DNA from: Auricularia sp. M13
Taxonomy: Eukaryota > Basidiomycota > Agaricomycetes > Auriculariales > Auriculariaceae
Assembly: GCA_037042915.1 (NCBI GenBank)
Contig: CM073193.1
Location: 8,928,001-8,992,000, forward strand
Direction: 5' to 3'
DNA: 64,000 nucleotides
Positions 5,911 to 64,000 of the stretch are shown here, one piece after another. Within the stretch, counting starts at the first letter, position 1. The number at the start of each line of letters is the position of its first letter. Below the pieces are notes generated by a model. That model had not been told where the DNA came from. It did not search any database and worked only from the letters and a program-made list of their open reading frames with translations. Made by a program: the position numbers and the translations under genes.

Positions 5911-7245
5911 TAAGGACACCACCTTGGCGGGAAAACGTTGACGAAAAAATAGGAACTCATGTTGGTACCACTGTGTATATTTGGACTTGTTGAATCTTTG
6001 TTAGTGGACTCGAGTAGATATGCCATGCGGCAGCAGGTCTAGGAGTAGCAGCAGAGCAGAGCACTCATGTGAACCTGCGTGGCGAGCGGAAGAGCAGAGG
6101 TATAATGTGGATGCGACGGGCCCGACAGCGTTGTCACCCTAGTGAGGTCAGCTCACATGGCCGTTGGCAGAGGGTGTAGATGCGTCAAGTTGCCCGGCGT
6201 CGTCGCTACGAATCACCAATGATTCAAAAGAAAGCAGCTTCGTCTGGCGCAGTGTCGTCAAAATCAGTGCCCGCAGAGACATTGTCGACAGTGCACAATT
6301 GCAACGAGTCTGGCGGTTTGGTGCATCCACAGGCAGCCTTGACATATTATCGTCGAGAAACCGCAGCAAATAAAGAGTCAAGATCGGGGCACTGGACGTC
6401 CGAATGCTGAGATGCGACATGGAGCCGGAAGGAGACATTGGCGTCCAGACGGAGGCGTGGAACCGGAAAAGAGCTTGGGCGCGGCGCGAGAACGAGAAAA
6501 ATTGGGACAGTACACGCAGAGATGGGCAGAGACGCAGGACATGATCATGCCTTCAAGAGCTGAATACGACGGGCTAATCGCGCGCACTTGCCGCAGTAGC
6601 AGCTCTCGTAGCATCGACGCTATAATGTCGAGCGCCGCCAATGCGCACAATACGTGCAGGATAACGTCACCGCAGTATGTATAGCACGTTGGATGCTGAG
6701 GGTTTGAGCTGAGCGACGGCCGGCATGGCTTGCAAGAGCCCTAGCTGAATGGCGCTCAAGCGGCTACCGTGACCGAGCTCGCCAGGCCTCAACGGTCAAT
6801 AGTACAGAGGCCAGAAGAAGGCCATGCTCGTCGAGCTGCTTGGGGCGGTGGGCCGTGCAACATGAGCAAAGACAAGGGACGCGTAGCGGACTTTGCGCGA
6901 CCGCGTTCTGTCCACGTGATGTTACGTCATCAACACCATTCACGAATAAGTCCGCGGTTGCGTTTCGCGCACACTGTATGATATTCTGGAACAGCAGGGA
7001 AGCTAATCGTGACTCATTTATTACACATCGCAGCGCCCTACATCGCCATGCAGCGGGACGGGAGTGCGCAGGATGGCCGACGGAGCAGCGAATTGGCTTA
7101 TCTAATCAGATACGGAGGCGGACCCGAGGGGCCGATCGATGGCATCATCGTTCCTAATCGCCCTTCGTCTGACAAACACGCAACTTTAAAGCCAGCTACG
7201 CCTTCTTCTCTCCAATCCATCCAGCGCATACACCGTACAACAACC
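5911..7245. other. intergenic, nothing recognised
   Basis: No exon chain or known protein is visible. The stretch separates the divergent F-box gene and thioredoxin gene and presumably holds both promoters. Confidence 0.5.
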
Positions 7246-11700: not shown

Positions 11701-12688
11701 TGTCAAGGTCTGCATCCTCTCTTCTTCGCTGGCTGATTCCATACGTTGACACTGCTCACTCTTAGGGCGACAATAGTTATAATGTCTACCCCGTACCACT
11801 GATTGATGCCCCAGTCTCCGTACGTCTGAGCAAGACAAGCGTGACCATTGCACCAGGTGCCTCGGCGACAGTTTCAGTCATGATTTCCCCGCCGAAGAAC
11901 GTCGACCCAAAGACTCTGCCGGTTGTGTCTGGCTGGATTCATGTCGCCGGATCTCTTGGCGACGCGCTCAAGGTGTCTTACATGGGCATCGCGGGCTCGC
12001 TGCGCGACGCGCAGGTCATCAGCACCGGTAACGACCTGATTGTCATCAAGGACGGTGGGCTCCCCGCCTTGATCCCGCTCGACAATGGCGAGGCGCGCGC
12101 ACAGAGAGGTCCGCGCAACTACACGCTCGCTCAGCCGCCCATCTTTGGTTTCAGGTACCGCAGAACTTTCGCTTAGCATCTGCATGTTCAAAGTGGTTGA
12201 CATGCGCGTCTTTTAGTCTTGCACAGGGCACGCGCCGTGTCGTCCTCGACCTCGTCAGCGCCGACACAAAAGTCAAATCCAACATCCCCAACCCCTTAGA
12301 TTCAGCTCCCGCTACTCCCGTCTCAAAGCGGACATGGTCGTGGTGGTGGCCGGGGCTCTTCAAGCCCGTGCACGGGGGTCATTCCTCCTACGCTGACGTA
12401 CCCATCCTTGGTCCTCTTGAAGCAGCGGAGTATGTCGCGCGGAGTGGCTATTCCAACCAGGCGGTACGTCTGTATCCGAGGCATGCATCGAGGCTAGCTG
12501 AATATTTCTGGTAGCCGCTGCCATACTTCATATTCGACTTCCCGACGGTCTTCGCCAACGGGACGGCCGTGCCGCTGGGCCAGTATAGGCTCCTGCTCCG
12601 CGCGCTGAGGATCACGGGCGACCCGAACAACGAGGCTGATTACGATGTTTACGTTAGCGAGCAGGTCGGCTTCGTCGACAAGCTGTAG
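8706..12688 (+). CDS. secreted subtilisin-like serine protease, S8 with PA insert (931 aa, 21 exons)
   Basis: Extracellular endopeptidase of the long fungal subtilisin type (Vpr/C5a-peptidase-like). Suggested join 8706-8779, 8841-8925, 8983-9090, 9166-9174, 9241-9311, 9378-9456, 9523-9578, 9641-10183, 10248-10299, 10367-10475, 10534-10634, 10687-10716, 10768-10793, 10850-10919, 10975-11140, 11196-11272, 11326-11564, 11617-11707, 11766-12154, 12217-12463, 12515-12688. Order: signal peptide (about 1-18), I9-like propeptide (30-110), catalytic domain with Asp163 (DTG), His223 (HGTHVAG) and Ser547 (SGTSMATP), a protease-associated insert between His and Ser (PLGDDVPDLASYAVVL), then a Fn3-like C-terminal part. 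Exon 4 is only 9 nt (TPE). The triad is intact, so the enzyme is probably active. A role in nutrition is inferred from the family. Confidence 0.9.
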
Positions 12689-13042
12689 GCGGCATGGAGA
12701 TAGACTCTTCGGACGTTGATATTTGATTCGGACTTGCTTTCTCGGACATGCGCCATCTAAATTGTCGGATAGCACATTCCTTTGTACATGCATCACATCG
12801 TAATTCATTCGTTTATACTTGCCTTAGAGTGAGTTATCAATCTTTCCTTACCGACCGTGTCTATGGAATCGTTCAAACAGTTGGATGTGTGTAGGCAGAT
12901 GCATATCAATTCAAGGTTCATGCAGCCAGCTGGCAATTAATATTGATACAGATACAGATACAAATACAGATAGACGAGGACTGTTCATACTCCACAAAGA
13001 TGACGGGACGGATTATACGATTACACGACCATTTCGACCAGG
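12689..13042. other. convergent intergenic spacer with GATACA microsatellite
   Basis: 3' flanks of two converging genes. A short array of GATACA/AATACA units lies at about 12945-12975. No gene seen. Confidence 0.55.
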
Positions 13043-14109
13043 TCAAGGCTGCACCGGCGGTGGCAACCGTGCCTTGACATACTGAGATAAGAGCTTCAAG
13101 TACGCCTCACGTTCTGCTATCTTGTGGTTAAGCGGATCCTCGAAGCGTGCGCGCTCGGCGCGTCCAAGCTCGTACTTGACGTCCCGAGCGAGCTCGCGCA
13201 TCTGCTCGGGGCCGAGATTGTCAACGTCCAGATCGCGCACCCCGCGACGCAAGCGGTTCTGCATTGCGGCCGCGAACGCCGGACCCGACATGGGCGGGAC
13301 TGGGTCGATAGGAGACGGCGGGCCAGACCACTGCATCGACACCTTCGTGTTGAGCACACGAGGAATGGCATTGTACGCCTCCGCGTCGCCGTACGTGTAC
13401 TGGAACCCCTTACGATGGCGTGGAAGGCGCGGCACGTTCGTCGGGTACACCGGGTGCTGTGGGCGCAACTTCTTCGCTGGCGAGCGCGGGGACGGCAACG
13501 ATGGCGACTTTGGTGACTTCGGAGACGTGGTCGCAGAGGGCGCTGAGACGTCGAATGCCAGCGTGCGCGGCTTGCGGCGGCGCGGGATGACCAAAGGCTG
13601 CGACGCGCCGCTCGAACCCTGGGCCTGATTTGCTGCAAGGCGCGCTCTGCGCTCTGCCTTGGCCAACGCAGCGTAGTCCGGCTCGTTGCCCATACTTTTG
13701 TCGTCCGGCTTGAGTCTCGCAGGCAGGCTGTTGCTGCGCTTCCTGGAGCGCGAGCGGTTGACGGGCGAGTCGAATGCCTTGGAGTCATCCGCAAAGCGCA
13801 CGGCCTTGGGCTGCGTGAGCCCAGCGCCCTGATCGCAGCTCTTCTTGAGGATGCCGCGGCGCGCCGGCTTGGGCGGCGGCGCGGCGTCCATCGGAGGCGT
13901 TACAAAGGAGCGGAAGACCGACAGCTTGAGGAGCTTCGACATAACTCCCTCAGGGTTCTGCGACGGCGTGATGCGCATTTTGGGGCGACCCTGCAAGGAG
14001 AGCCATGAGCAGATGAACGAGGGAAAGGGGGTTATACAAATGAGCATACCGGCTGAGTCTCGAGAATGATCGCAATGGTGGGAAGCGTGAGGCTGTCAAC
14101 GGCAGTCAT
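13043..14109 (-). CDS. unknown basic, low-complexity protein (335 aa, 2 exons)
   Basis: I do not recognise this protein. Suggested join 14109-14050 and 13990-13043 (59-nt intron, GTATGC...TTGCAG); the first exon encodes MTAVDSLTLPTIAIILETQP. The middle is disordered and rich in Arg, Ser and Pro, with RRGILKK followed by KAVRFADD, a basic-then-[RK]VxF-like pattern resembling protein phosphatase 1 docking motifs (inference). Long KSPKSPSLPSPRSP runs offer proline-directed phosphosites. The C-terminus (about 265-330) is a predicted helix with RAERARFEDPLNHKIAEREAYLKLL. No signal peptide or membrane segment is seen. Codon use and frame length support a real gene. Confidence 0.72.
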
Positions 14110-46282: not shown

Positions 46283-46700
46283 ATGCTAAGCAGGGATTTG
46301 TGTCGGCTGCGCCACTTTCGTCTTTTTTCACCAACTCGTCCACCTGATATGTGTCTATCGCAGCCCCCAGAGCTGCTGCACAGTCAAAAAGTGCTCAAAG
46401 TCTTTGACAAGTGCCCTTGTGCAGCACAAATCCATGCTAGCATGGCCCAGCAGGCCGGCCAGCATGTCATTTTTTCGTCAGGCACCAGCAGCGGGAAGAC
46501 TCTGACTATGTGAATGCCCTTGCTTGTGGACCCGGACCTAAACCTGCTGGTATTCAGTCCCATAAATGACCTGGGTGAACAGAAGGCAAAGGAGCTCAAG
46601 AGTGTTGAGGCCAAGTCAGGTATCAGTGTTGCGGTCCTTACCTCAGACTCATGTTTCGAGGAAGTTGTGCAGGCGAGTAGAGAAACGAGAACCTTACTGT
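46283..46700 (+). pseudogene. RecQ/DEAD-type helicase fragment
   Basis: The translation around 46385-46680 reads KVFDKCPCAAQIHASMAQQA, then VIFSSGTSSGKTLTM (Walker A, motif I), an in-frame TGA, and then DPDLNLLVFSPINDLGEQKA. This is the Q-motif/motif I/motif Ia order of the superfamily 2 helicases that are abundant and often broken in Agaricomycete repeats. No motif II-VI follows, and the frame enters the AATTGGAAC array, so only an N-terminal fragment is left. Confidence 0.6.
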
Positions 46701-46708
46701 GCCCCACA

Positions 46709-47420
46709 CTTCCAATTGGAATTCCAATTGGAAACTGGAATTCCAATTGGAATTCCACTCATTGTAGAGTACCCTGTATCCCCAGTCAAACTGGTACAAA
46801 TTGGATCAGAATTGGAACACAATTGTGACTCTCCAGCTTAGGGAATTGGAACTACTTTTCCAAGATTGGAAACAGGAGGTTTGTGTCCAATTGGAACAGA
46901 ATTGGAACTGGAACTGAACTTTTACCTATAGAGAACTGAACTGAACGATGAATTGGAACCAAATTGGAACCAGAACAGACCTTTTCTCTATGGAGCAGGG
47001 CACATGGAATTGGAACAGAATTGGAACTAGATTACGCCCTGCTCTATAGGAGGTGAATGGAATTGGAACCGAATTGGAACCAGGAACCAGGCCTTGTTCT
47101 ATAGAGCAGGGCATAAGCTAGTTCCAATTCTGTTCCAATTCCATGTGCCCTGCTCCATAGAGAAAAGGTCTGTTCTGGTTCCAATTTGGTTCCAATTCCA
47201 TTCACCTCCTATAGAGCAGGGCGTAAGCTAGTTCCAATTCTGTTCCAATTCCTTGTGCCCTGCTCTGCGGACGGAATTGGAACAGAATTGGAACAGAATT
47301 GGAACTAGGAACAAGGCCTGAACAGAGACAGGAATTGGAATAGAATTGGAACAACTGATAGAAACAAATTTATATAATTCACGGGATTGGAACGGAATTG
47401 GAACAAGGATGCTTTACTCT
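46709..47420. repeat. hairpin-rich AATTGGAAC array
   Basis: About 700 bp built from GGAATTGGAACnGAATTGGAAC units and their complements (GTTCCAATTCTGTTCCAATTC), interspersed with a CTATAGAGCAGGGC box in both orientations. Blocks around 46940-47100 are repeated in inverted orientation at about 47100-47260, so the region can fold into long hairpins. It has no coding sense. It looks like a structured satellite or the body of a small foldback element. Confidence 0.75.
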
Positions 47421-47424
47421 AAAA

Positions 47425-47515
47425 AGCAAGTGCCCAAAGCAGGATTTGAACCAGCAACCTCACTAATGAAAGCCACCAGCCAGGCTCGAGCACTATGCCA
47501 CTGCACCACCTTCGT
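47425..47515 (-). repeat. tRNA-like (tRNA-derived) sequence
   Basis: On the minus strand a near-A-box (TGGCATAGTGCTCGAG) is followed about 35 nt later by a perfect B-box (GGTTCAAATCC) with a T stem carrying one mismatch. The 3' strand of the acceptor (TTTGGGC) finds no partner at the 5' side, so it does not fold as a proper tRNA. A T-run follows. It is probably a tRNA-derived repeat or decayed tRNA gene that may still attract Pol III factors. Confidence 0.45.
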
Positions 47516-47531
47516 CCGCTCGCTGCCCGTT

Positions 47532-47787
47532 TGTAAGCTTCGCTAGATTACTCTCTAGTTAGTGCTTGCAAATAGAGTTTCTTAAACGTTCGGTTTGCGA
47601 CACTCTAGAGTCGTGAGTGGCTCAAGGTCTCCGTGTTCAAGAAAGCTGAGGAGCTCTGCACTCAGAGCTCCTCCTTATATACATGCGGACACAACTGCGG
47701 ACTACGGGCTACGGACTGCGGACTGGGCATGCTTACCAAGAAACTGTGATGGATTGCATATGGGCCTAGGTACATTTGCGCGCTGCA
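47532..47787 (-). repeat. LTR (3' LTR of the element)
   Basis: 256 bp, starting TGTAAGCTTCGCTAG on the plus strand and ending GCGCGCTGCA. I see no difference from the other LTR. A CTTATATACATG motif inside could serve as a TATA box. Confidence 0.93.
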
Positions 47788-47852
47788 TTCGCCCTCCTCG
47801 TGAGCAAAGCTCGCGAAAGAAAGCCAGTAGATAAAGGTTTACATGAACAGGC

Positions 47853-50800
47853 TTAGTCAAAACCATGTGCGAGAGCGTCCGCAGTCATGAATTGAGCAAG
47901 CATGGTGTCAGCGACACCGAGGTCGAGCTGCTCGATGCCCGCTGTCACGCTTCCCGCGTACTCCGAGTTAGCCGGCACGGCAGGAGGTTCGCCGACGGTG
48001 TTGTCCTCCTGAGCGACATGATCATTCTGCACATCCGGAAACATGGTGGGAGTGATACCCACGTGCGCTGGGAAGGCGTCCATCACGGCCGCAGGCTGGT
48101 ACGCGAACACCTCGCGGTCCTCGTGGCGGACCTCGTGTACAGCCTCTTGGCCGGAGGCGCGAGGAGTAGGCGAACGGCGCGACGCGTCATCGCCATGCAC
48201 TGCCGCAGCATCGTGCATCATTCCCAGCGGGTTGGCGTCCTCGCCGGGCTCGTGATGTTCCTCAAAAGGAGTTTCATCCCGCATCTCCGCGTCGGAACCG
48301 TGAAAGAGCGTCCCGGCCCGGGGGTGAGGAGTATCCTCCCGTCTTTGAAAAATGGGGCTGGCTGGACGGAACCCTCGGCCTCGGACGTGGAACGGGTTGC
48401 CGAATTGATCACCTCCCGGACGATAGGAAGGAGGAGAGTTGCGACTCTCGTGATCGTCGCGCTGTAGGTCCTGTCGGTAGGTTCGCATGTTGAATCGAAC
48501 CCGTTCGTTGCTTCGCTCAGCGCGAATTGAATTGCGAGGGCGATGGTTATCTACGAATAGCTCGTGAATAAATGATAATGATCGTCGGTCAGACGAGTGC
48601 GTACCGTCACCCTGACCGATCCGCCTGTTCCAGTTGCGGCGCTGAAATCCTCGCGTCACCGGAGGGAGAGCAGCCCGCTGCAGGGAACGAAGAGCAGACT
48701 GCATCTGCCAGCGATGATCGCGTTGGGTAGTGCTGAGAAGGGATCGAGCGGCGTTGAACATAACCTCGACCGCTTCCAGCGGGACCATGGGTTTTCCGCT
48801 GTTCGGCTCTGCGAACGACCGCTCAGCGCGAGCCTTGCGAGCTAGCAGAATCTGACGATTGTGCTGCTGGAGGGAGCGCGCGAGCACGGGGTCGATGGCA
48901 GTGGGGTTCTCGCGACGGAAGGTGTCGTAGAGCAGCGGCGGCTCCTCCATTGGCAGTGGCGTGTCACCATTGACAGCCTTGTCCATGCGGGTAGCCCAGT
49001 CCGCGCAGCGCTCGAATAACGCCTCTCCCATCGACGAAGGGCGCGTGAAACGGGCGTAGAACGACATAGCGATGTGGTACGAGAGCGCGAGCACGGGCGG
49101 CGGCAGGTGAACTGCGAGAGCAGAATGGGGACTCTCATGGCTCAATGAGGTCCGCCTTTTATGCCCTTCTCGTGGTCGGTTCGATGATGCCTCGTGTTCA
49201 CTGTCTGGATAACTATTCGGATAGTTCCTGTCTGGATAACACCAAAACGGGAATATAAGTGATCCCGCGGCGCGGGCCGGGGGATCTGCTTCCGATTCCG
49301 TTATGCTTCCGAATTTCCTTTTTGGGTTGATTCCCCGAGATTCGCAGAAATCATCGAAAGCTTGTAATTGAGCAACAGTCTCATAGCTTTCTTCTGTTGT
49401 AAACCCGTCTGACCAGTTAACAAAGAACATAGGCTTCTTGTTGGTGTCCCACCGATAGCCTAGGATCTCATTAACGGTCTTTTCGAGCGAGTGTTCTCCA
49501 AGGGCGATTAATTCAGGTAGTTGTCGACTAGGGAATCGTTGATCATCCCTTTCCACGTATTCTCTTAGTAGACTAACATGAAAAGTTGGATGCAGCTTTC
49601 GCTTGACGAGTTCAGGAGGGAGTTCCAACGTATATGCGGCCCCGGGAGTCACTTCTTTGATGATTTTAAAGGGTCCAATATACTTAGGAACCAACTTCCT
49701 AGACTTAGTCTTCGACAGGCGAAGGTTCTTAGTGCTCAGATACACCAATTGGCCCACCTGAAAAGTAGCTTCCCTCCGGTGCTTGTTAGCCTGCTCGGTC
49801 TGTCGTACGCGCGCGCCGATGATAGCATCATGCGCGGAAATCATAGTCTCCTTCAGATCTTCTATGAATCTTTGTACACCTGGGAACTTACTCGACTTAT
49901 CCCAGGTCAGACTGAGAGGCTGTTGCGCAGAATTCAAGTAGAACGGTGAGTATCCCGTCGTGGCCGAGGTGGCACTATTCATAGCAAACTCAATGGCTGG
50001 TAATTTAGCAGCCCATTCATTCTGGGCCTCTGATACGCACTGACGTACCATTTGCCCAAGCGTGCGATTCGCACGCTCAGTCATTCCGTCAGTTTCAGGA
50101 TGATACGCCGTTGACATGCGTAATTGAACGCCGGTTAGCTCATGGAGCTTCTTCCAGAATACGCTGGTAAATAGAGTATCCCGGTCACTTACTATGGCCT
50201 CAGGAAGCCCATGTAGCTTATACACGGTGTTGAACAATAATTCCGCTACATCGGCTGCTTTGTACGTTGTTCGGGCAGGTACCAAATGTACCATAGACGT
50301 CAAATGATCAATAATAGTACATATTCGGTCGAACCAGGCATGTTGGTAATAGGATTTTGGCAAGGGGCCTACAAAGTCAATGCCTATAACCTGCCAGGGT
50401 CGATGCGGCACCGGCAAGGTCTTCAGTAAACCGAAAGGTTTCTGGTTGTCATCCTTGGTAGTTTTACAAGTGTGGCAACTATTAACAAACTCCTTTACAT
50501 CTTTACTCATGTCCTTCCACCAGACTTCTTGTCTTAGAAAGGTCAGTGTCTTGAGCGAGCCAAGGTGAGCAAGAATAGAGTGTGCTTGCTCGATTAGGAT
50601 GACCCGTAATCGCCGGTTCCCGATTAAGATATCCGGGATGCACAATAGATCCCGCCCTCCGGTTTCCGTTCCCATGTAAATAATTTCTTGTCCGTCACTC
50701 CCGACAACGTAGAAGTTTCTAAAGACTTCTGGTTGCGCAAGGATCTTGCGAAAGAATGCGTCATCGCCGTACTTCCCGGCAAGGTCGTGTGGCAGTCGCA

Positions 50801-53771
50801 ACGTGGGCTCGGCGGCCGATATCACGCGGACTAATCCTGACCGTCGGTCAGGCACAAACGATTTAGGCTCGTGCGGAGGATCGTCAGGAGATCCTGCTTC
50901 TTGCACGCGTTCAGATTGAGTCTGAGCGACTACATCCTGCTCGTTGAGCACAATAGACTCGGATTGAAGAGTACGATTGTTGACACCAGCGTGAGTCTCG
51001 GACAACGTGTTCAGGGCATCATCAGAGTGTGATCGTGAAGAAACGGCAGTCCGAACGGCCTCGTGTTCTCTATCAGGTTTATTGCCCAGTGTTCGGCCCG
51101 CCCTCCGGCGGACAATCTCCGGATGCTTACTAGCTCCGCGCCAAATCTCAACCTCGCTTTCTGACGACGACTCGCTGCTGGAGTCCACGAGCTCGCGCAG
51201 GGGAATGCCCTTCAGGGCCTGCTTATTTCGACGGGTGAACCGTACTGGCGACGCGGCCTGGCCTTGCAGGCGGCGTGACCTTCGGGGCGGTGCTTCTCCA
51301 TCACGCGCGTCTTGTTCATCTCGCGGATCTGGCTCTTCTGGCGACTTCACTAGCACGATAGCCATGGCTCGAGCGTCATACGACGCAGGTTGTCTTACGT
51401 TCTGTCCGACATACACTGGTCCTGACAGCACCGCGCTACGAGGATCCTCATCCCCTGACTCGTCCGAGCTTTCCTGGACCATCTCGCTTGGGGCTCGAAC
51501 CGTGCCTACCAGATCTCCTTCGTAAATCCTGGATAGGCTATCAGCTAGTTTATTATCTGGTCCGGGAATATACTCGATTTCAAAGTCAAACTCGCCCAGG
51601 ACGTTGAGCCAGCGCGCCTGCCGTGGCGAAACATCTTTCTGTTTCATGAAGTGAATCAAGGACTTGTGGTCCGTACATATTCTGAACCTGATGCCGTGAA
51701 GCATCGGTCGGAATCGTTTGAGCGACTCAATGATAGCGAGCAACTCGCGTTCATGGGTCGTATAATTTTGCTGGGCGCTGTTGAACTTCCCGCTCCAGAA
51801 GATAACTACTCGAGCGTCTGCTAAGTTCTCGCCCTGGCTGATATAGCCGCTAGCCCCTGTCAACGAGGCATCGGTTACCAAGTTGATGGGTCCAAGCTTC
51901 AGGCTGTAATCTATTGCATGCCGTCTCTTATTTCTATGGTCATGAACTATCTGTTTGACCTCCTCAAATGCCCGCTGATGGGTCTCAGTCCATTTGAATA
52001 CTTTGGTTGAGCCGACTAACTGGGTTAGGATTCCCATCGGTATACGGATACCTTTGCAGTCATGAGCTAGGAATCCGACTGCTCCAATGAAGGACATCAG
52101 CAGTCCCTTACTATTCGGAGTCGGCCAGTTAAGGACTTTGTCGACTTTATGCGGGTCCATCTTGATCCCGTCCTGATCGATCACGTGACCTAAGATCTCG
52201 AGCTCTTCGGCGAAGAGTTGCATCTTGGTAGGATTCAGGAAGAATTTCTCCCTCCTCAGCACCGCTAATATCTTTCTCAGGTGCTCTAGATGCTCTTCGG
52301 CCGTGTCGGAATACACAATTATGTCATCAAGATATACATCCATGAACACGCCGATATAAGGTGCAAAAACGTGATTCATCAGGGTTTGGTATGTCGCAGG
52401 TGCGTTACAGTCACCTATTTGCATTACTAGACTTTCCATTGTGCCATCAGGAGTGTTGAACATCGTCCGCGAGACGTGCTCAGGCTTCACTCTGATTTGT
52501 TCGTACGCATCCTTACCATCTATGAGACTGCGATATTTTCGTTTAACCACGTTTCGCAGTATCTCTTCGATATCTGGAAGTGGTGCAGCCACTTTTATGG
52601 TATTCTCATTTCGTTGGCGGGTGTCAATCACCGTTCGAATGCGTATCTCACCATCCTTAGATTTGGGCTTCGGTAGGATCATTAAGGGACAGCAAGTCCC
52701 TCCAGCTGAGTATCTCCAGCGTCCAGTATTTAGGTAATCTAACTTCTTTTGTACCCATATAGGTCTCAACGCTTCTGGGCAGCGAGAAGGTCGATATGGG
52801 TACGCTTTGTTCACGTCCTTTAGCGGAATTTCATGGTTAATAGCTCTCAGCGGCGGTAATGGCGTCTTCGCAGCCTCAAGAAACAAATCCGCAGCTTCCT
52901 TAAAGATGATATTTCGAAGTTTTGGTATGTCCGGTTCTTTTACTTGTGCTGCATTCGCTCTCGGGGTAATTAATTGAGCCATTTCCCTACCTTCCATTGG
53001 TTTAGACTCATTGCTGCCTATATGCACTCTCGTTGGGTTGAATCCAACCATTACTGAGTGCTGCCATAAGAAGGGAGTGCCGAGAACTACGTCGTAGACG
53101 TCGATGTTCGCTATGTCCCAGGTACGCGTTTCATCTACATTTTGATACTGTAGCCGAGTTTGACATTCAAAATTAATCTTAGAGCGCGAGCCTGAGACTG
53201 CGAGCAATAGGTCTAAGGGGTGCGCCTTGGGTTTCAGCTTAACTTTTAGCTGGTCAGCTAATGTCGTCGACATCATGTCCGTCATGCAGCCAGTATCAAT
53301 GAACGCGGTGCACATATGGTTATTGATCCTAACTTTTACAGAGATAGGCAATGGCAATAAGCGGACTTCGTCCTTAATCCGCGCGGCGCCTCGACGGACA
53401 GCGGAGACTTGTTCAGGCGCTTCGGGCGCCGTCGCTGACGTAGTCGTAGACTTCCACCGGCGCGCCGTGCTCGAATTGGACGCGGTAGTGATACCAGTAC
53501 GAGCCATCTTCGCCATCAATGTGTTCCTCCCAGGCGACGGACTGCACTTCGCCCTCCGAATCAAATTCGGAAGTTTCGTCGTCACTCGGTACACTGACCG
53601 AAGTCTCACTCGACGAATCGCTGACAGGCAGCAGATCGGGCAGACTGTCCGGGGTGTTGCGAACTTGTGATTCCACTCGCGGGCTCGCTGACACCTCGAC
53701 GGACTCATTGTCTTGGCTAGCGTCCGCTTCCGCCTGGCCCTCCAGTGCTTCCACCAACTCGTCAAGATCAA
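47853..53771 (-). mobile_element. pol region of the Ty3/Gypsy element
   Basis: Domains in order along the minus strand: aspartic protease (FIDTGCMTDMMS), reverse transcriptase (with YLDDIIVYS), RNase H (TDASLTGASGYIS), integrase with an HHCC zinc finger (HSILAHLGS ... CHTCK) and a catalytic core (GIDFVGPLPKS, VSDRDTLFTS), and a chromodomain-like stretch (VNEILGYRWDTNKKPMFFVN). About 450 further residues follow the chromodomain, an extension outside the standard set. Annotated as part of a fossil-type element, not as a host gene. Confidence 0.92.
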
Positions 53772-53798
53772 GTCGCAGGGCGCCTTTCCCTGCGTCTC

Positions 53799-56700
53799 CT
53801 ACGGCCCCTCCATTCTCCGTCGTTGGTTCTGGAGTCCGGGACTGCATGAACTCAGTCTTCCAGACCCAGTAGCGATGAACGGTGAGCTCCAACTCGGTGT
53901 TGTGGCACGGCTGACGGTAACACGTCCAGTCCTCTCCACTTTCCCAGTCACGCGACGCGTCATGCCTCTTGTACTACGAAAGTAAGTAAGTAGTTTCGCT
54001 GATAGTTGGAGATGACATACTAATGCTCCGGGCTCGTTAAGTAGCTCGGGCTTACGAATAAGGTCGCGAATGCGAATTCCTGGCGCAAGTTGTGCGGCTG
54101 ACACTTCGTAAGTGATGTTGGTAGCGAGGTCTCTCACCCAGAGGTCCACAGCGTCGGTTTGGATGAGGAACCTCTGGTACCGAGGATGTCCGAGTTCCCA
54201 AGCGTGGATGTAATTATCCGCGGGGACCCAGCATCCGGCTATGTACGACAACGCACAGCGAATCGGAATCCGCGATTCGAACCAGGGCATGGATCGCGTG
54301 CAGAGCTGTACTTGCTCGTCCAGCTGGTGCTCGTCCAAGCCAAGGAACTTCTGAATGATCGACGCGATGTCGATCCCATGTCGAGTGAAGTCGGTACGTT
54401 CGACTGTGTAAATGCAGTTTCGCACGTCGTCGACTACTTTCAGCTCGCCGTGTGGGACGTATAATCCCTGCGAGTAGCAAGGGTAGGCTACCGCAAAGCG
54501 ATCGCTCACGTCCTGCAGGCCGGCGCGAAGCGCGGTGGCAGGCGGGAAGAACTCCAGCAGGGCGACATGAATAGCCCACGCACGACGTTCATCTGTTGTT
54601 GTCGTATAATCGACTTGCATATCGTCGAGGGCAGAGGCGGAGAACGGTGGGAGATAAGAGGCCATTGCGAAAACTGCAGAGGTTCGAATTGCAGAGGTGG
54701 GTACTCGAGCCTTGCTTTTATACTTTGGTGTCTCTGCCTCGTGCTCATGTGACCTCACTGTTCCCGCAGCAACTCTCACGCCGGATCTACGGGCTTCTTG
54801 ACGCAAGGGACACGCGTTAGACATATGCCCAGTTTTATGACAATGGAAACAGAGTCCCTGCGCGCGATGCTCGGCTTCTTGTTGAGCATTCAACTTGGCA
54901 CCCACTTTCAGTTCAGATGAACTCGCTTGACGCGGTCGCGGGTTTGAAAATCGACCAGCGGTTGCAGCGCTTGATTTGACGGTTTCAGTGGTCGAAGTTC
55001 TCGTTACTGCAACGCTTCGCCCACCACGTCGGCTACCTCCGCGGGGACGCCACCGACTGCTCGCAGTAGGTTTTGTGTTTCTGGAAGGTGCGTCTTTGTT
55101 AGATCTAGAGGCAGACGCTCCTTCGCTAACACCACTGCTTCTAAGCAGCTTTTTCTTCATCCTTTCGCGCCTTTCTGCGCGTTGTGCATACACTAAAAGT
55201 GTATTAATATCGTCGTATTCTAGACTCCTTCCCTTTTCAGCCCAGAATAACTGAATGTAGTTGTCAGCTCCTTCCCAGAAAATGCGGCGAATTGCATATT
55301 CGTCCACGTCAGGATACCGAATCGCTAAGTTTTCCAAATCTTTGGCGAAGTCCTTTATTGGGCGTCCACGCTGCTTCGCCTTCATTAACTTAGCTCGTAG
55401 TTCTTCTCTGAAATCGTCAGAGAAGCAAATTTGGTAGAGCTCTTGGAAAATCTCTCTCGTAGTCCAGGGATAACTGCTCAGTGCTACGTGCTTTACATAC
55501 CACGCTTTTGCTGGTCCCGACAATGCTCTACTCATCAGTCGTACTATCCGAGCTTCACTGAGCTGTTTGGACTCGATCCAGTCGTCCCACTCGAATACGA
55601 AGGCTTCATACTTTTCCAAGTCCTCCTCGCCGTCGTAAGTTGGCATCGGTAGCTTGAGATTCCGAATCATACGACGCTGACGTTCTTCCTCAGACTCATC
55701 GTCATCATCTTCCTCATCCGGGTCCGGTGGCTCGATGGGATTACCATCCTCATCATAGGCCGCATCATCATCATCGTCTGGAGGCTCATCTCCTCCACCA
55801 CCTCCTCCACCACTCGCACGTCCTGGTCCGCCAGGACCTCGATTACCTCCTCCACTTCCTGACCCTGCAGGCGTTACTGGACTATAACGTGATCCTTCTC
55901 CGTGCGCCAGAAAGGCAGGTTTTGGAGCTGGAGGTTCCGTATACAATCTTCCCGAAAGAATCCCTCCTGGCGGCTGGGGCGGAGCATTCGTCCCTTTTGG
56001 TACTTTTACATATTGAGCAGTAGGTTGACCAGATACTAATCCTTGTCTCGTGATATCTCCGACTTCAGTGGAGGGAGCGAAGTAACTTCGCCCGAAGCGC
56101 GCCATCTGACTGACCGCCGAAATGGCATTTCCCGCCATCGAACGGTCCCGGATGGCTGTGGGAGTAGCTGAAACTGATGCTACATGGGGAGTCACAGGGG
56201 TTTGAGGCAGAGGGCGCGTCGGTCGCGGTTCGGAAGCTGGTCCCCAAACCGGAATCCCAGGCGATCGCGACGACCCTGGACGTTCACGCGGATCCCGCTC
56301 CTTACCCTTACTCCTTGCTTTCCCTTTCTTCTCTTGAGCCTCGGACAGAGCCTCTCGGGTTCGAGTAGGATTAGTCACCGTCTCGGTTACTGCATACACG
56401 GGGTGAACGGCCATTGTGGTTGTCCGTCGTGGACCCAATTTATTTGAGGTTAACGGTCTACCCCATCCATTGTACCAAGATTGCATCTTCTCATTGAATA
56501 CGGCAATCTTATCTTTGTCCTGGTCTGGAATGCTATCTACGGTCGCAATGCGGTCTTCTGAACTAGCAGAGTCCATGTCTGACTCAGTAACATACTCGGG
56601 CGGCGGTGATACCGCTGTCATAGTTACTTCAGATTCTCCCAGCGAGGATTCTGCCCCTCCAGCAGTTCTCGTTGGAGTATCATACTCACTTGCACTGGCT

Positions 56701-57671
56701 TCACTTTCATAATCTTCAGGTAAAGCAAAGCTCACAGACGGACGAGTATGAGGCGAATGGCCCTCAGGCGAAAACGTCTCTGTTGTAACACTTAACATAG
56801 ATGGTCGCCGTCTCTCGCGTACAGACTCATCCACAGGGCCAGCCGCTGGAGTCGTCGTTGCCAACTCCTTGTGATCCGTACGAGATCGAGGGGTGGTGAA
56901 CGCCTCGACGCCAGATGCGATACTGCGTGTAATCGCGCGCGCGAAGTTCCAGACCCCCGCACCTTCATCGGGGTTGGGTCCAGTTTGGGCGTAGATGTTG
57001 CGACGAACTGGTGGAATGCCCAAAACGGGCGGCTCGAGTTCTTCGATTGAACGAGCAGCGGCTCTGGATGGTGAACTGGCCGCAGGTGCAGAATCAGCTG
57101 ATTCAGCACCCTCCATCCCGCGTGGATGGGTAATCGTAGGCGAGGACACGCGAGCCTCGCCCTCCGACCGAGTATCTGCAGGTCGGGTGAGCACATCAGC
57201 TTCAGCAGGCAGACGAGCCGTCTCCCGCGCCGGTGCGAGCTCTTGCAGCTCCTGTTCCGGGAAATGCAACAACGAGTCCTGCAAAGTACCCGCGTCAGGA
57301 GCTGTTCGTGTTGCTGTTCGAACAAATGGGTTGGGCGTACCACGGCCGAGCGCTGCAGACGCTGTAGGCGGTGGTGAAGATGGCGGCGAGTGCCTAATGG
57401 CTGCGCGCGGCGTCACAGGGACTAGACCCGTGAGCGGGTCGTTATCCGGTGACGATACGACCTCGTCGTCCATCGAGGATAAAGTAGCTGGATAAGAAGC
57501 GGCTTGAGCCGTTCCGTGCGTACCGGAAGCAGGTTGGCCGGCGTTTCGCTGTGCCCGACCTGCAGTTTCCCGCAATCTCCTGGACCGCACGACATCCTCC
57601 CTATCCAATTGAGAGATAATCTCTCGGTTGGCTGTCATTCGCACGGGGTGATCAGTCCCTTGAGAAGACAT
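53799..57671 (-). mobile_element. gag-like region of the Ty3/Gypsy element
   Basis: A long frame with a disordered Ser/Pro/Thr-rich N-terminal half, an acidic linker (PPDPDEEDDDDESEEE), a retrotransposon-gag capsid-like segment (PTYDGEEDLEKYEAFVFEWD onward) and one CCHC zinc knuckle (CFHCHKTGHMSNAC). The N-terminal half is much longer than in typical Ty3/Gypsy gag. Confidence 0.88.
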
Positions 57672-57717
57672 TGCAAGTTAGTAGTAGTTAACACGGAAGA
57701 GATAGGTACTCAAAAAA

Positions 57718-57973
57718 TGTAAGCTTCGCTAGATTACTCTCTAGTTAGTGCTTGCAAATAGAGTTTCTTAAACGTTCGGTTTGCGACACTCTAGAGTCGT
57801 GAGTGGCTCAAGGTCTCCGTGTTCAAGAAAGCTGAGGAGCTCTGCACTCAGAGCTCCTCCTTATATACATGCGGACACAACTGCGGACTACGGGCTACGG
57901 ACTGCGGACTGGGCATGCTTACCAAGAAACTGTGATGGATTGCATATGGGCCTAGGTACATTTGCGCGCTGCA
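57718..57973 (-). repeat. LTR (5' LTR of the element)
   Basis: Second 256-bp LTR, identical by eye to 47532-47787. It is followed on its outer side by the CCGTT target duplication. Confidence 0.93.
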
Positions 57974-57978
57974 CCGTT

Positions 57979-58300
57979 GCCCGCCCGTCCCGCATCGCCC
58001 ACCGCCCGCCCGTCTGCGTTGCCCATTGCCTGCCCGCCGCCGTCTGATGCCCGCTCGCCGCCGTCCGTCCGTTGCCCATTGCCCGCCTGCTCGCTGCCCA
58101 TCTGCGCGCTTGCGTTTCCCGTTGCCCATCCGCCTGCTTGCCGTCGTCCGCCTGCCCGCCTGCCCGCCCGCCCGCGTCCGTCCTTGCCCGCTCGCTGCCC
58201 GTCTGCCCGCTCTCGTTGCCCGCCCGCATCCGCGCTTGCCCACCGCCGTCCGTCGCCTGTCGCCTGCTCGCACCCGTCGTCCGACCTTGCCCTTCGTCGC
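57979..58300. repeat. GCCCGCC-rich low-complexity tract
   Basis: About 320 bp of irregular repeats of TGCCCGCCCG/CCGTCCGTTGCC words. Open on several frames but only because of composition. It is the upstream region of the gene starting at 58307 and was next to the insertion site of the LTR element. Confidence 0.7.
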
Positions 58301-58306
58301 TCAGCC

Positions 58307-60841
58307 ATGCCGCCTCGCCGTCCTTCCACGCGTACCCAGGTTGCCGCTGAGACTGCAGCTGCAGCAGCCTCAGCCCCTCGTCGGGCTACACGTAGCAGGT
58401 AAGGTTTGCTGCTGCTGTTGATGAAGCATCAACTCATTTAATTATGCAGGCCTGAGCCACTCGCATCGGCCTTGGCTCCCGTCTCCCGTCCAAGGAAGTC
58501 AAAGGCTGTGGCACAGCCTGAGCCTGTTCCTGAGCCTGAGCCCGAGCCTGAGCCCGAACCTGAGCACTCTGTGTATGTTTCCGTTGTGATATATAATTGG
58601 TGTGTTCTAAGTCTGCCTTAGTCCCGAACCCAATGAAGTGAAGACAACAAAGTGAGTCTTGCTGGTGATTGTATGTGGAGTTGGGATCTTATTTGTGTGT
58701 GCAGGCGTGCTTCCAAGGCCAAGAAGACTTCAGTCCAGCGCTTGCAAGAGGACTTGGCTGCAACTAGCCCGACTAGACTCGCTGGGTATGTTGCTATGCT
58801 TAGTGTTTGTCCTTGGCCTGATGGTGTTCAGTGTTGCTCGTGTTCTTCATGAGTCAGGGGACAGTGTGGCACCACCTGCGCCGCTTGCTCGCTCTTCATC
58901 CCCACCTCCTGCAGAGGATAGCTATGGTATCGATCTGTCTCCTGTGCGTCCTCGTGGCCGTGTCCCTGTCCATGATGGGCCTGTTGCTCGTGGCCGAAGT
59001 GCTAGTCCACATATGCCTGGGCCCCGTTCTCGTCGCTCTAGTAGGGAGGCTACTCCAGTTGCACCACCTCGACGCTCGTGCAGCACTTCACCAGTCTTGC
59101 GTGCATCTCCCCCCTCTGTGTCTGCCTCAGAACCTGTGCCTGTTCCCACCCCAGAGCCTGCGCCTGTTCCCAACCCAGAGCCTGTGCCTGTCCCTGCCCC
59201 TGGGCCTGCGCCTGTCCCTGCCCCAGGGCCTGTGCCTGCACCTACACCTGTGCCTGCTGCTTCCAGTCGCTCGCACCATAGGCAGGAGCGCACCAAGCCC
59301 ATGCAAGGTGCTTCACGCTCTGCGGGAGGGACCTTTCGTGGCAACAGGGTTGCACAAGGTGCCATGCCTCGAGATATAGCTGGTACGTATCCTTGCCTCT
59401 CACTTGTTCAGGCTCTCACTGCATGTTAGTGACTGAGGATGCTGTCACCGAGGAAGCAACACTTGGTGAGTTGTTGGGTGTTCCTTGTTGCTGTGATTAA
59501 GTTGTGTCTAGGTGTCAAGCTCCTTGTTTATGAGACTACCGTGTGCGACAAGGACCCTGTTGTCGTTCGCTTCAAGGTTGTGCCCAGTCCTCGCGTCTCA
59601 GATATTGTGGCAGGACTCTCGTCGTGTTTGCTTCGTGCTGGTCCTCTGTATGTTCGTGACGAGGAGCACTGGTGTGCGCTGGGTCTTCTCCCTCTGCTCG
59701 TCTCTATGTCAGATCCCTTTGTCTTTTTCGGAGTCCCCACCCAGTGACAACTGCGCTGTTGCCAAGATTGTTCTGGTCTGTCCCTTTTTATGTGCTCATG
59801 TTCTGTATGCTGATATATATTTAGGAACATCCTTCGACTAGCTCTGCCTCGCTTGCGCCTGCTGTTGCACCTCTCCAGTCTCCTGCTTTTGCTGGCACTT
59901 TTCCCAAGAGCAAGTTCGATCGTGGGCATGAGGCTATCAGGGTTGTCCGACAGGCCCTTAACTATGACACCAAGTACGCCTCTCTTTTTGCTGGCAACTG
60001 CCAGGATGTTCTCCATGCCTATCGACGCTACCTTGCGATCAAAGAGGCTGAGATGGACTGGAGCAACCTTGTGACCTCAGGCAAGGCTCCAGCAGGGCTG
60101 GAGAAAATGTCTGTGACGCATTTAATTTCGTGCTTCATGTCCTACTCGACTTGGACCCAGTACGCTCACTTTGATGTTAGTATCCCTTTCTACCCCTTGC
60201 TCTGACTTGATTCTCATGCACCTCTCTTTTAGATTGTCCGTGGTACTCAGAAGAAGCGTCGCAAGAGCGATGTCAACCTCAGTCTCAAAGATTCCGACTT
60301 ACATCGCTATCTGCAGGGTCAGCAGCTAACTCCTGAGCGTCTCGAGCAGATCTGGGGTTCCTATTCTGCCTCATATGAGCTGAAAAGGCTCCCAGAGGCA
60401 ATCAGGAGGTGCCAGCAGGAGATCATTAACTCCAGCTCCCCTGTGTCTGTTGTCCAGCCTCTACGGGATCGCTCCCCTGCTCCACCTGCTCGTCCTCGCT
60501 CTCGCTCTCGTTCTCCAGCATCTGCTTGCCCTCGTTCTCGTACACACTCCCCACTGCCTGGGACTTCGCGTGGTCGTTCATTTACTCGCGATCGCACTCG
60601 CTCTCCTCCTCGCTTTCGGTCTCGCTCACTCTCTTCGCCTCGCAAGATCCGACAACGCCACAGTTCGCCTCCATTGCAATCTCATACGCCAACATCGCGC
60701 CACCAGTCTCGGCATTCCTTGCCTTATTCACGTCATGCATCCTACTCACGACATTCATCGCCTGCGAGATCTTACACGTCTTCGCGGCATCGCGAGCGCT
60801 CACAGGAGGTGGATACCAGGCCAACAAAACGCCGTCGGTAG
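58307..60841 (+). CDS. Pro/Ser/Arg-rich nuclear-type protein next to the CxC gene
   Basis: I do not recognise the family. First exons by splice phase: 58307-58398, 58450-58572, 58622-58651, 58705-58785, 58832-59382; later exons run to a stop at 60839-60841. N-terminus MPPRRPSTRTQVAAETAAAA is basic and Ala-rich; exon 2 has PEPVPEPEPEPEPEPEHSV; exon 5 has PVPTPEPAPVPNPEPVPVPA repeats. A folded-looking segment follows (about 59880-60410): KSKFDRGHEAIRVVRQALNY, then LHAYRRYLAIKEAEMDWSNL and RYLQGQQLTPERLEQIWGSY. The C-terminus is an Arg/Ser domain (RSRSRSPASACPRSRTHS ... RPTKRRR) ending in a likely NLS. It lies 155 bp before the next gene on the same strand, suggesting a linked pair. It may belong to the same mobile unit. 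Confidence 0.65.
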
Positions 60842-60996
60842 GTAGACTAGATCAGTATCTCTCTTATCTATCTTAATTCCTGCAGTAGTTTTGTGATCAC
60901 TTTATCTCACTCTTTTGTCGGTTTATTTATTTGGTAGGTAGACTCGGGGAACCAATCTTATGGACATTATTCACCCGCATTTATCATAGGTTCCTC

Positions 60997-63349
60997 ATGG
61001 GACGAAGGCAGATCACCCTCGGTTCTACTTGGATGGTGCTAGTACTATTACTTGTTCCTGGCACCATCGCCGCCGACGCATCTGCTCCATTCCCTGACAT
61101 CAAGTTCTCGGTGTTCAGCAACTTTGTGCAGAACAACTTCCATGCAGACATCTCGCTGGCTGCAGTGCTAGGTTTTATGTTCACTGTGCTTCGCAATCCC
61201 GATCTACTCTCGCTTCATTACCGCCAAAAGTACAAAGGTACACCTGGCGACACAATCTCAAACATGTCTAGCTGGGGCACGTTTTTGGCCGATGTGATTC
61301 TGCGTCGCTGGGACTCTGCAGGTGTTGACAATCCAGCATCGACTATGCTTGCTGCTCCTGTTACACCTTGGCAACTTTTGCGACTTGACCAGCGGCGTCC
61401 CACCAAGTGTCAACTACTGGGAGTGGCAATCGAGCAGTTTGTGGCTCTCACTGGCCATGTTGCCACTAGCCACCAGCCTATTCCACACTTCGACGAATCT
61501 GCTATTCAACACATCGTTGTTCTTGTACCAGCACGCACAGATTGCCGCACGACAAACTGTGGATTGGCGCTGAAGCGCAATACGCATGGGGCTGATGCGA
61601 CACCCATTACTGTGATCAACGGTACAGACATAGTTCCCAACTCGTTCCTACTTGGGGCTCTTTGCACATTGTGCAAGTTTATCTACTATCCAGATCACTC
61701 GACACATCTGAAGTCTCCAGAGGCGTCCACTCCAGCTGGGGCCAGAAAGCCTCGCATTCGCTACAACAATCTTTCAGCAGCCCACATGAAGATTGGGCGC
61801 AACCTTTGGGTCGACCAGAAGTTTGCATGGACTGTGTTGAATGGTCTCTATTCGTTTGCTTCCACAGCATCATTCACCGAGTTCTGGACAAAGTCGTTTT
61901 GGCCCGAAGGCTCTCTGTCTCGCAGGCAGATCTGGCAATGCTTCGTCCAGATGTCCACGCGGGAGATTGCTCTGACTCTTAACCGCCACTTTGTCACCGA
62001 CGATGGACTGGCCATTACCCAGGTGGTGGAACAGGCTAACAAGCAGTTTAATACCATTGGCAGTGTCCCTGGTGCGAAGGATCATGCGTGTTCAGAATGC
62101 ACGCAACCATATCGAGCTCCAGCTCAGCATCTTGCTGGTGATGCAGCTGCTACTCTTGGAGTTGAACAATCTGCTGCAGGTGCCCCTGCTCTAGAGGGCC
62201 AAGTTGTGGATGCTGCACCAGGAGATGTTCGCCTGCGTCTCTCCAGTACACACTCTGTGACTGCAGATGTGATTGATGGAATTATAATGGGACCGTTGGT
62301 GAGCTCATATTCTGTGTTCTGCTCTCATACTGTGGAAAGAGCTAATTCATGTGCAGCACTGCGCTCTGGAGGATTGCTGTCAGCCACTCCTTGACACATC
62401 TAAAGGTGTATGGTGCAAAACACATCATCAGCGGTTCGCCCACCTCTGCCATGTTAAAGGCTGCTCACTGCCCATTGTTCCTGACACACGAGCCTGTGTT
62501 GGGCATCAGCCAGAGTGGAAACACCATCTGGATCGCTTTGGAAGGCAGTCTGTCATTGGAATGCGTCGTCGAATTCGCCAGGCTGAGCAGGAGACCAACG
62601 ACTGGAATCCATCTTCTCGTTCGCGCGCTCAGCCTCCTGCCCATGATGACAATGGCGAGCCTCTCCTTCCAGAGAGGAAGAACTACTTTGCTCCAGGTCG
62701 TTTCTACTGCCTCGAACTCATGGTCAAACCATGTGGTGTTCCAACAGCCTTTGACTTGTTCGACAAATCAGAGTCGCCCTCCAAGATTATCGACTTCATC
62801 AAGCGCCATCACCCTGGCTCTAGCAAGTCTCAGTACTATATCATCGACAAGGCTTGCATGGTTCTTCGTCGTCTTGTCACTTTGGGCAAATGGGACGAGT
62901 GGAAGAAGACCTCTCGACTTGTAGTTGATTCATATCACTATATCAACCATCGAGTCGCAGATTACCTCTGCCGCAAGTGGTGTAACCCAGCTCCTATGGA
63001 TGGCAGTGCTCCCAACTTGGTCATTTCTTCGACTGACGCCTCTGGACGTGTGCACCACAAGAGGGCCTTCAATACTCAGGTGTGTATTTATATTTATTGC
63101 CCTTGATCAGTCTTTAACTCTTGTCTCAAGGCAGCAGAGCAGCTGAATGCTTGGATATCAGGATACCAGCCCATCTTGAATCGTATGACAGTTTCCAACT
63201 TTAGGTGGTATGTCCTTGTACTACTGTTCCTGCATTATCGCACCGTCGAGGCACGCACATCGGCAAGGGACCAGCCGATGGATGCTGCCGACGAGGACGA
63301 TGGGGAACAGGATGTTGACGCCCTTGACGACGTTGAGACACATGAGTAA
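60997..63349 (+). CDS. CxC5/CxC6 cysteine-cluster protein, KDZ-transposon-associated (747 aa, 3 exons)
   Basis: Suggested join 60997-62298, 62357-63079, 63131-63349. The N-terminal half matches the CxC5-type cluster (TDCRTTNCGLALKRN, ALCTLCKFIYYPDHSTH, and HACSECTQPYRAP). The second exon opens with a CxC6-type zinc cluster: HCALEDCCQPLLDTSKG, VWCKTHHQRFAHLCHVKGC, and ACVGHQPEW. About 220 residues follow with conserved-looking acidic positions (YYIIDKACMVLRRLV, LVVDSYHYINHRVADYLC, AFNTQAAEQLNAWISGY), which may form a nuclease-like or DNA-handling domain (inference). The end is acidic (DEDDGEQDVDALDDVETHE). CxC5 and CxC6 were described as cysteine clusters found with Kyakuja-Dileera-Zisupton transposases in fungi. 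The function is unknown. The frame is intact throughout. Confidence 0.82.
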
Positions 63350-64000
63350 TTTTTGTGATGCAGATTGCACACTTGTATTTATTTTTGGCAGCCTTTTTCT
63401 CAGTCATGTATGAGCGGTACACTATTTAAAAATAAGTAGCTTGTTTCGCTCGATGTTGCCTGCTGCTGATGTGACGTCAAGGTCGTTTACATGTCTACTA
63501 AAACTTCCAGTGGTTGGCTCAGTGAGAGTATAGTGGACCGGCTGTTGCGGTTTGCGGCAATGTTCTTCGTCCACACCACTCCTGTGTTGTTTTAGCGACG
63601 CTCAGTCCTTGCTCGCTGTCCTCCATTCCCACCACTGCTACGCGCTCAAACCCTTGACCTCGGTCCACGCGCTCCCGCAATACCCTTCTGAGTTGCTCGC
63701 CGGACATCGCCCCTCTCTCATCGCCGTGCCAGTGCATCCCAGCACCGTCAGCATGCTCCTGCTGCCGTTCGGGCCGTCGGCTGTTCATGCCTGCTATTGT
63801 TGCGATTCGCGGCGGTGTCCTGCGTCCACACCTCTCCTGCTTCACCATTATCGACGCTCAGTCCACATTCGCCGCCCTCCACTGCCGCACGCCGTGACGA
63901 CCACCTCGGTCCCATACGCTCCAGCAACGCAACTTGGGCTGCACAGCCTCCGTTCTACACTCGCCAACGCCCCCGTCGACTTCCCTGCCACGCCGGCCAG
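63350..64000. other. window end, diverged tandem repeat
   Basis: No gene seen. Two related segments begin near 63538 and 63787 (both contain TTGCGRTTYGCGGC, then CGTCCACACC, then CGACGCTCAGTCC), a unit of roughly 245-250 bp that has diverged. The second copy continues to the window edge. Confidence 0.55.

Follow-up and report, generated by a model that had tools for sequence, protein, structure and literature searches.

The 64,000-nucleotide stretch of Auricularia sp. M13 DNA analyzed here (contig CM073193.1, positions 8,928,001 to 8,992,000; hereafter the window, C1:8928001-8992000 of a searched genome of 52.1 Mb in 14 contigs, whose KDZ, Plavaka and CxC content points to a mushroom-type fungus) contains two intron-bearing genes on the same strand, with the stop codon of gene 1 lying 155 bp ahead of gene 2. 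Coordinates below are those of the window unless a contig is given. The initial annotation, made from the letters of the sequence, had described the two genes as a module occupying 58307..63349 and had suggested that it could be a transposon or a chromatin-handling system. The arrangement of the genes was confirmed by their coordinates and splicing, an arginine/serine-rich (RS/SR-rich) C-terminus was seen in the first protein, and both Pfam profiles for the CxC5/CxC6 cysteine clusters (PF18718 and PF18721) scored over their gathering cut-offs in the second. The mobile unit proved to be much larger than the two genes, however. We found that the gene pair sits within a complete DNA transposon extending from 46687 to 64994, and gene 2 very probably encodes the transposase of this element.

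The limits of the element were obtained from a DNA search, which recovered a near-complete copy of the window unit on contig C7 at ~97-98% identity. Alignment of the two copies defined the common unit, whose right end falls past the end of the window (C1:8992994). The C7 copy (C7:3269107-3278485) measures 9,379 bp end to end and is flanked on both sides by the 8-bp duplication GCCGGCGG. A nearby inverted copy of the C7 flanking repeat carries the same target without an element and with a single GCCGGCGG, which is the state expected prior to insertion. Adjoining the C7 copy, within tandemly repeated flanking DNA, is a 3.6-kb palindrome with arms 99% alike (C7:3278486-3282084).

A pattern search of the genome with the two termini (GAGAACCTTACTGTGCCCCA on the left and, read inwards, CTGTAAGTCACTGTGCCCCA on the right) yielded 54 left and 50 right ends, compared to 0 and 0 with the patterns reversed; the check for terminal repeats in multiple copies that accompanied the initial annotation was thus positive, and the transposon idea was upheld. 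These ends form 47 pairs within 20 kb, comprising 37 short miniature inverted-repeat transposable elements (MITEs, 422-495 bp) and 10 longer elements, with seven left and three right ends remaining unpaired. When flanks were examined for 10 of the 37 short pairs and for every longer pair (20 in total), perfect 8-bp duplications were present in 19, that is, in 10/10 short and 9/10 longer pairs, the exception being the window copy, whereas 0 of 272 mismatched left/right flank comparisons used as a control agreed at 7 or more of the 8 bases. This transposon family inserts with an 8-bp stagger, and the MITEs share its ends. A second element with the same kind of ends, at C7:2749015-2759741, has the perfect duplication CGCTGGGC, and a 5,348-bp element at C2:1834607-1839954 has the duplication GGGTAACA. 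In a comparison of two full elements, matches outside genes 1 and 2 were confined to the ends, to tandem repeats and to a segment of ~150 bp close to the right end. Three of 17 assumed pairs, in which two right ends had been joined and no duplication was present, were rejected as true pairs; one of these joins consists of two MITEs, each with a perfect duplication, and the other two are, by position, ends of separate MITEs. We also observed a 7.2-kb element with window-type ends and the duplication GCCCGTGA (C11:2280588-2287817), the interior of which lacks genes 1 and 2 and which by blastn has only ends, repeats and a ~250-bp piece in common. Immediately inward of the left end of the window copy (46950-47265), inverted and direct repeats overlap one another; they partly recur in this 7.2-kb relative and could be binding sites.

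Conservation of the protein encoded by gene 2 was assessed in an eight-row alignment of C-terminal regions that leaves out C7:3271k (near-identical to the window), C11:1360k (truncated), C9:328k (near-identical to C4:500k) and C9:299k (CxC5 only). The proposed Asp-Asp-Glu (D-D-E) catalytic triad was retained throughout (Table 1), as were a later D-x2-C and a C-x-P, and identity to the window protein ranged from 29 to 74% for the six other rows of alignment A1, which holds seven of the eight. A His pair was present as H-x3-H in five rows, including the window, and as H-x4-H in three (group C, described below). Of the two aspartates that had been put forward as possibly catalytic in the initial annotation, the one in IIDKACMV corresponds to D598 and is a good candidate, whereas that in VVDSYHY was rejected, the position being D in five rows and N in three. 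Comparison of gene 2 in the window copy with its C7 counterpart showed 17 synonymous and 9 non-synonymous differences and no indels, which is far from the neutral expectation (P from 7e-6 to 2e-4, according to the transition bias assumed) and indicates that the gene is under purifying selection. Given the triad in all eight relatives and this selection, gene 2 is most likely the transposase itself, and not a KDZ companion left without its transposase, as had first been supposed. The gene 2 of the second element (C7:2749015-2759741) is 53% identical to that of the window over 695 aligned positions. A search of IMG/VR viral contigs gave no relative. The N-terminus of the protein is hydrophobic and signal-peptide-like (60997-61080, STWMVLVLLLVPGTIAA), as it also is at C7:2754k and C2:1834k, which is odd for a nuclear transposase.

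Table 1. Features of the transposon and its two genes in the window.
Feature	Position	Strand	Remarks
Transposon, part within the window	46687..64000	+	Unit shared with C7:3269107-3278485; termini re-found by pattern
Left terminus, GAGAACCTTACTGTGCCCCA	46687..46706	+	Pattern occurs 54 times genome-wide, reversed pattern 0 times
Ty3-type long terminal repeat (LTR) retrotransposon inside the transposon	47532..57973	-	LTRs 47532-47787 and 57718-57973 identical
Remnant of a C-rich tandem-repeat stretch	57989..58300	+	C7 counterpart ~1.5 kb longer
Gene 1: acidic/proline-rich middle, RS/SR-rich basic C-terminus, intron-rich	58307..60841	+	ATG 58307, stop 60839-60841
Gene 2: CxC5/CxC6 protein, proposed transposase, 747 aa	60997..63349	+	Exons 60997-62298, 62357-63079, 63131-63349
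CxC5 cluster, residues 172-301	61510..61899	+	Pfam 44.1 bits, cut-off 26.9
CxC6 cluster, residues 425-490, split by intron 1	62269..62524	+	Pfam 51.5 bits, cut-off 27.5
D427, proposed first catalytic residue, DG motif at CxC6 start	62275..62277	+	Kept in 8/8 aligned relatives
D598, proposed second catalytic residue, D-x2-C	62846..62848	+	Kept in 8/8
E678, proposed third catalytic residue, EQxNxW	63137..63139	+	Kept in 8/8
Right non-coding part of the transposon	63350..64000	+	Runs on to 64994

The association of the two genes is a property of group A, to which the window element belongs. At the window, C7:3271k, C7:2754k and C11:1360k, a gene 1 encoding an SR tail lies ahead of gene 2, and the element at C2:1834607-1839954 has gene 1 (tblastn E 4.7e-19) but, after it, no more than an N-terminal piece of gene 2. 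Within this genome, the repeated occurrence of the two genes side by side supports the suggestion that they are conserved together; for C7:2754k and C11:1360k the evidence consists of collinear tblastx segments, some of them low-complexity. An own-genome protein search with gene 1 returned C1, C7:3273k, C2:1836k and one match at E 0.45, and tblastn at E 0.01 found no gene 1 in the nine neighborhoods examined. The exon structure of gene 1 was resolved in part, and Pfam scans of two pieces of it gave no match. Near 59.72 kb, gene 1 of the window copy differs in length from its C7 counterpart by one base, which shifts the frame, so that it is probably out of frame; the annotated pair is thus real, but its first gene is probably not intact here. 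Gene 1 evolves fast, and its SR-rich product is probably an accessory protein.

Other CxC5/CxC6 genes fall into two further groups. Group B comprises C11:1131k, C11:1302k and C2:5021k, the two C11 loci being 22-37% identical to gene 2, depending on the segment, and in 3/3 places an upstream gene on the same strand encodes a protein with a charged tail. A 24-residue motif aligned between gene 1 of groups A and B (probability 2.7%, E 0.017) was not enough to establish homology, and Pfam scans of eight group B ORFs (open reading frames; gene 1 and a third gene) gave no match over the cut-off. Two group B elements of 10,590 and 11,654 bp have other ends, common to both (CAGTAGTAAGCTCGG; GAGTTGTATACCC), and perfect 8-bp duplications (GACCGGCC and CTTGGGAC). 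Downstream of the transposase gene, group B elements have in common a further conserved region on the minus strand (C11:1122001-1140300, oriented positions 11023-13752), from which five ORF pieces had no Pfam match over the cut-off. Group C has loci on C9, C10 and C4. At C9:423001-441400, two ~700-bp stretches (oriented positions 6273-6972 and 12494-13193) flank a group C CxC5/CxC6 gene, both delimited by 29-30-nt inverted repeats of identical sequence (TACAGTTGGGGACAGTC...). As element ends, inverted repeats at C9:432k and C4:500k were rejected, no duplication being established.

The order of motifs in gene 2 (D, C, E, D-x2-C, H-x3-H, C, E) is like that of Kyakuja-Dileera-Zisupton (KDZ) transposases, whose copies in this genome read D (DGN or DAN), C, E, YDxxC, FHxxxH, C, E; gene 2 has a D-D-E with a YDxxC-type second Asp and an H-x3-H before the C. 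When gene 2 was compared by hhalign with a KDZ profile built from 14 of 15 loci (L039 left out), the D-x2-C and the His pair were in register at a probability of only 10.4% (E 0.003), with controls reaching 1.4% (best of 50 column shuffles), 0.2% (reversed) and 1.1% (best of 15 retrotransposon pol fragments). No match of gene 2 to the Pfam KDZ profile (PF18758) was reported, and one of four C-terminal pieces, from the paralog C2:5021k, scored 13.0 bits (E 0.087), below the cut-off of 26.6. The covered part of PMC12730594 gives duplications of 8 bp for Zisupton and a Dileera family, resembling those found here, and of 7 bp for Kyakuja. The element thus behaves much as KDZ-type transposons do and might represent a remote branch of that group, but no KDZ profile passes its cut-off and the profile comparison is weak; we lean slightly toward a relationship between gene 2 and KDZ. 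Gene 2 differs from KDZ in the location of CxC6 between the first and second catalytic residues, as does the element in its SR-rich second gene. No TET/JBP gene was recognized in the ORFs scanned, this family not having been searched by name.

Other transposase families were compared as well. Plavaka and the CMCT clade are characterized by a C-x2-C before the H motif between the second D and E and by 2-5-bp duplications (PMC12730594, part covered), and membership was rejected since the window protein has a single Cys between D598 and H628 and the duplications are 8 bp. An 8-bp duplication would by itself fit hAT, but no hAT family appeared in the Pfam scans, run with E limits of 1 and 10. Harbinger-type Nuwa likewise combines a transposase with a second protein, but according to the part of PMC12730594 covered that protein has a Myb/SANT domain; the duplications are 3 bp compared with 8 bp here, and the second protein here is rich in SR, its scanned pieces giving no Pfam match. 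The main text of PMC12730594 has no word starting with CxC.

A comparable insertion has been described in the oyster mushroom, where a 6,792-bp insert with a 739-aa CxC5/CxC6 ORF disrupts MSH4 in sporeless Pleurotus ostreatus (PMC7641404). The covered text of that paper gives CxC5/CxC6 copy numbers of 44 and nearly 60 for two genomes, and describes KDZ genes with CxC2 and never with CxC5/CxC6. Like the element described here, the insert is multi-copy, with a CxC5/CxC6 ORF, a C-rich microsatellite cluster and no adjoining KDZ gene. This comparison is by description only, the text covered containing no account of ends, duplications or a second gene, and it provides a lead that the same kind of element may be behind the oyster mushroom insert.

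Alternative explanations were considered for the spread of the gene pair. If the CxC5/CxC6 protein were a DNA-binding passenger or accessory, a standard KDZ transposase, or another one generating 8-bp duplications, could mobilize the elements in trans. KDZ matches are indeed abundant in this genome (at least 149 listed, from 150 of 163 scored candidates), the names given to the CxC5/CxC6 clusters in Pfam link them to KDZ transposases, and mobilization in trans is evident from the short non-autonomous elements. However, among the KDZ matches listed, none starts within 19,005 bp of any of the 17 CxC5/CxC6 places, consistent with the initial observation that no KDZ transposase is present at the pair; moreover, the gene is carried by two element groups with different ends, and its conserved triad and purifying selection also argue against a mere passenger. 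We therefore consider mobilization by another transposase unlikely. The purifying selection would also be compatible with a domesticated two-gene chromatin or defense module, but the multiple copies flanked by target-site duplications, the MITEs and the damaged copies are traits of mobile elements; domestication is thus disfavored and very improbable, and the chromatin-handling role once suggested is not supported.

Another alternative is spread by LTR retrotransposons, the pair then being a host unit or one linked to retrotransposons. The covered text of PMC7641404 places CxC5/CxC6 regions often near Copia elements, leading its authors to propose Copia involvement, and an LTR element does lie inside the window copy. 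This ~10.4-kb insert, however, is of the Ty3 type (protease, reverse transcriptase, RNase H and integrase, in that order, with a gag-like ORF as a sub-threshold match), has its own 5-bp duplication (CCGTT) and is absent from the alignment of the C7 copy; the ends and 8-bp duplications of the DNA transposon are likewise its own. Spread by LTR retrotransposons is thus largely refuted and extremely improbable.

Several results weigh against gene 2 being the transposase of a two-gene element. Gene 2 has no Pfam transposase domain over the cut-off; PDB searches gave only lectin matches by sequence (E 0.17 to 0.45) and none by profile, and a single-sequence structure model of exons 2-3 was unusable, with a pLDDT (predicted local distance difference test) of 39.7. 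The window copy is without an 8-bp duplication (AGAGAAAC vs. GCAGGAGC) and for this reason is probably rearranged. Gene 1 was missed at C7:2754k by protein search and seen there by collinear tblastx alone. In group C, neither an SR-rich gene 1 nor element boundaries were found, and the sequences examined cover 12 of the 17 CxC5/CxC6 places, without C1:9269k, C11:2708k, C1:3152k, C3:2966k and C3:140k.

Taking these points into account, we favor a model in which the two genes are those of a DNA transposon whose insertion is staggered by 8 bp. In this model gene 2 is its DDE transposase and probably a distant relative of the KDZ group. The element ends would be bound by the zinc clusters of gene 2, CxC6 being situated between the first catalytic residue and the second, and D427, D598 and E678 would cut the ends and join them to the target. 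Gene 1 would act as an accessory nuclear protein whose SR-rich basic tail may bind nucleic acid or the transposase, and the same machinery would act in trans on short MITEs that retain only the ends. Catalysis, zinc binding and end recognition by gene 2, like the entire role of gene 1, are what we infer. A more far-reaching proposal, which we regard as doubtful, is that CxC5/CxC6 proteins form their own eukaryotic DDE transposase superfamily apart from KDZ, with a zinc cluster in the catalytic domain and an obligatory SR-rich partner tying transposition to nuclear RNA/splicing bodies, and that they move the elements and MITEs seen here, the same kind of element having caused the sporeless oyster mushroom mutation. 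Our literature search met no description of such CxC5/CxC6 elements, the founding paper on CxC clusters being outside its coverage. That paper, by Iyer and colleagues in 2014, may already treat these proteins as divergent KDZ members.

The covered text of PMC7641404 saw no transposase beside the CxC5/CxC6 unit and turned to Copia; by contrast, gene 2 as transposase would provide a rule for genome annotation, whereby a CxC5/CxC6 protein is read as the enzyme that moves an element family of its own, characterized by defined ends, duplications of 8 bp, an accompanying gene and many MITEs. The cause of the oyster mushroom insertion would then become directly testable, as would the role of the SR-rich protein in transposition.

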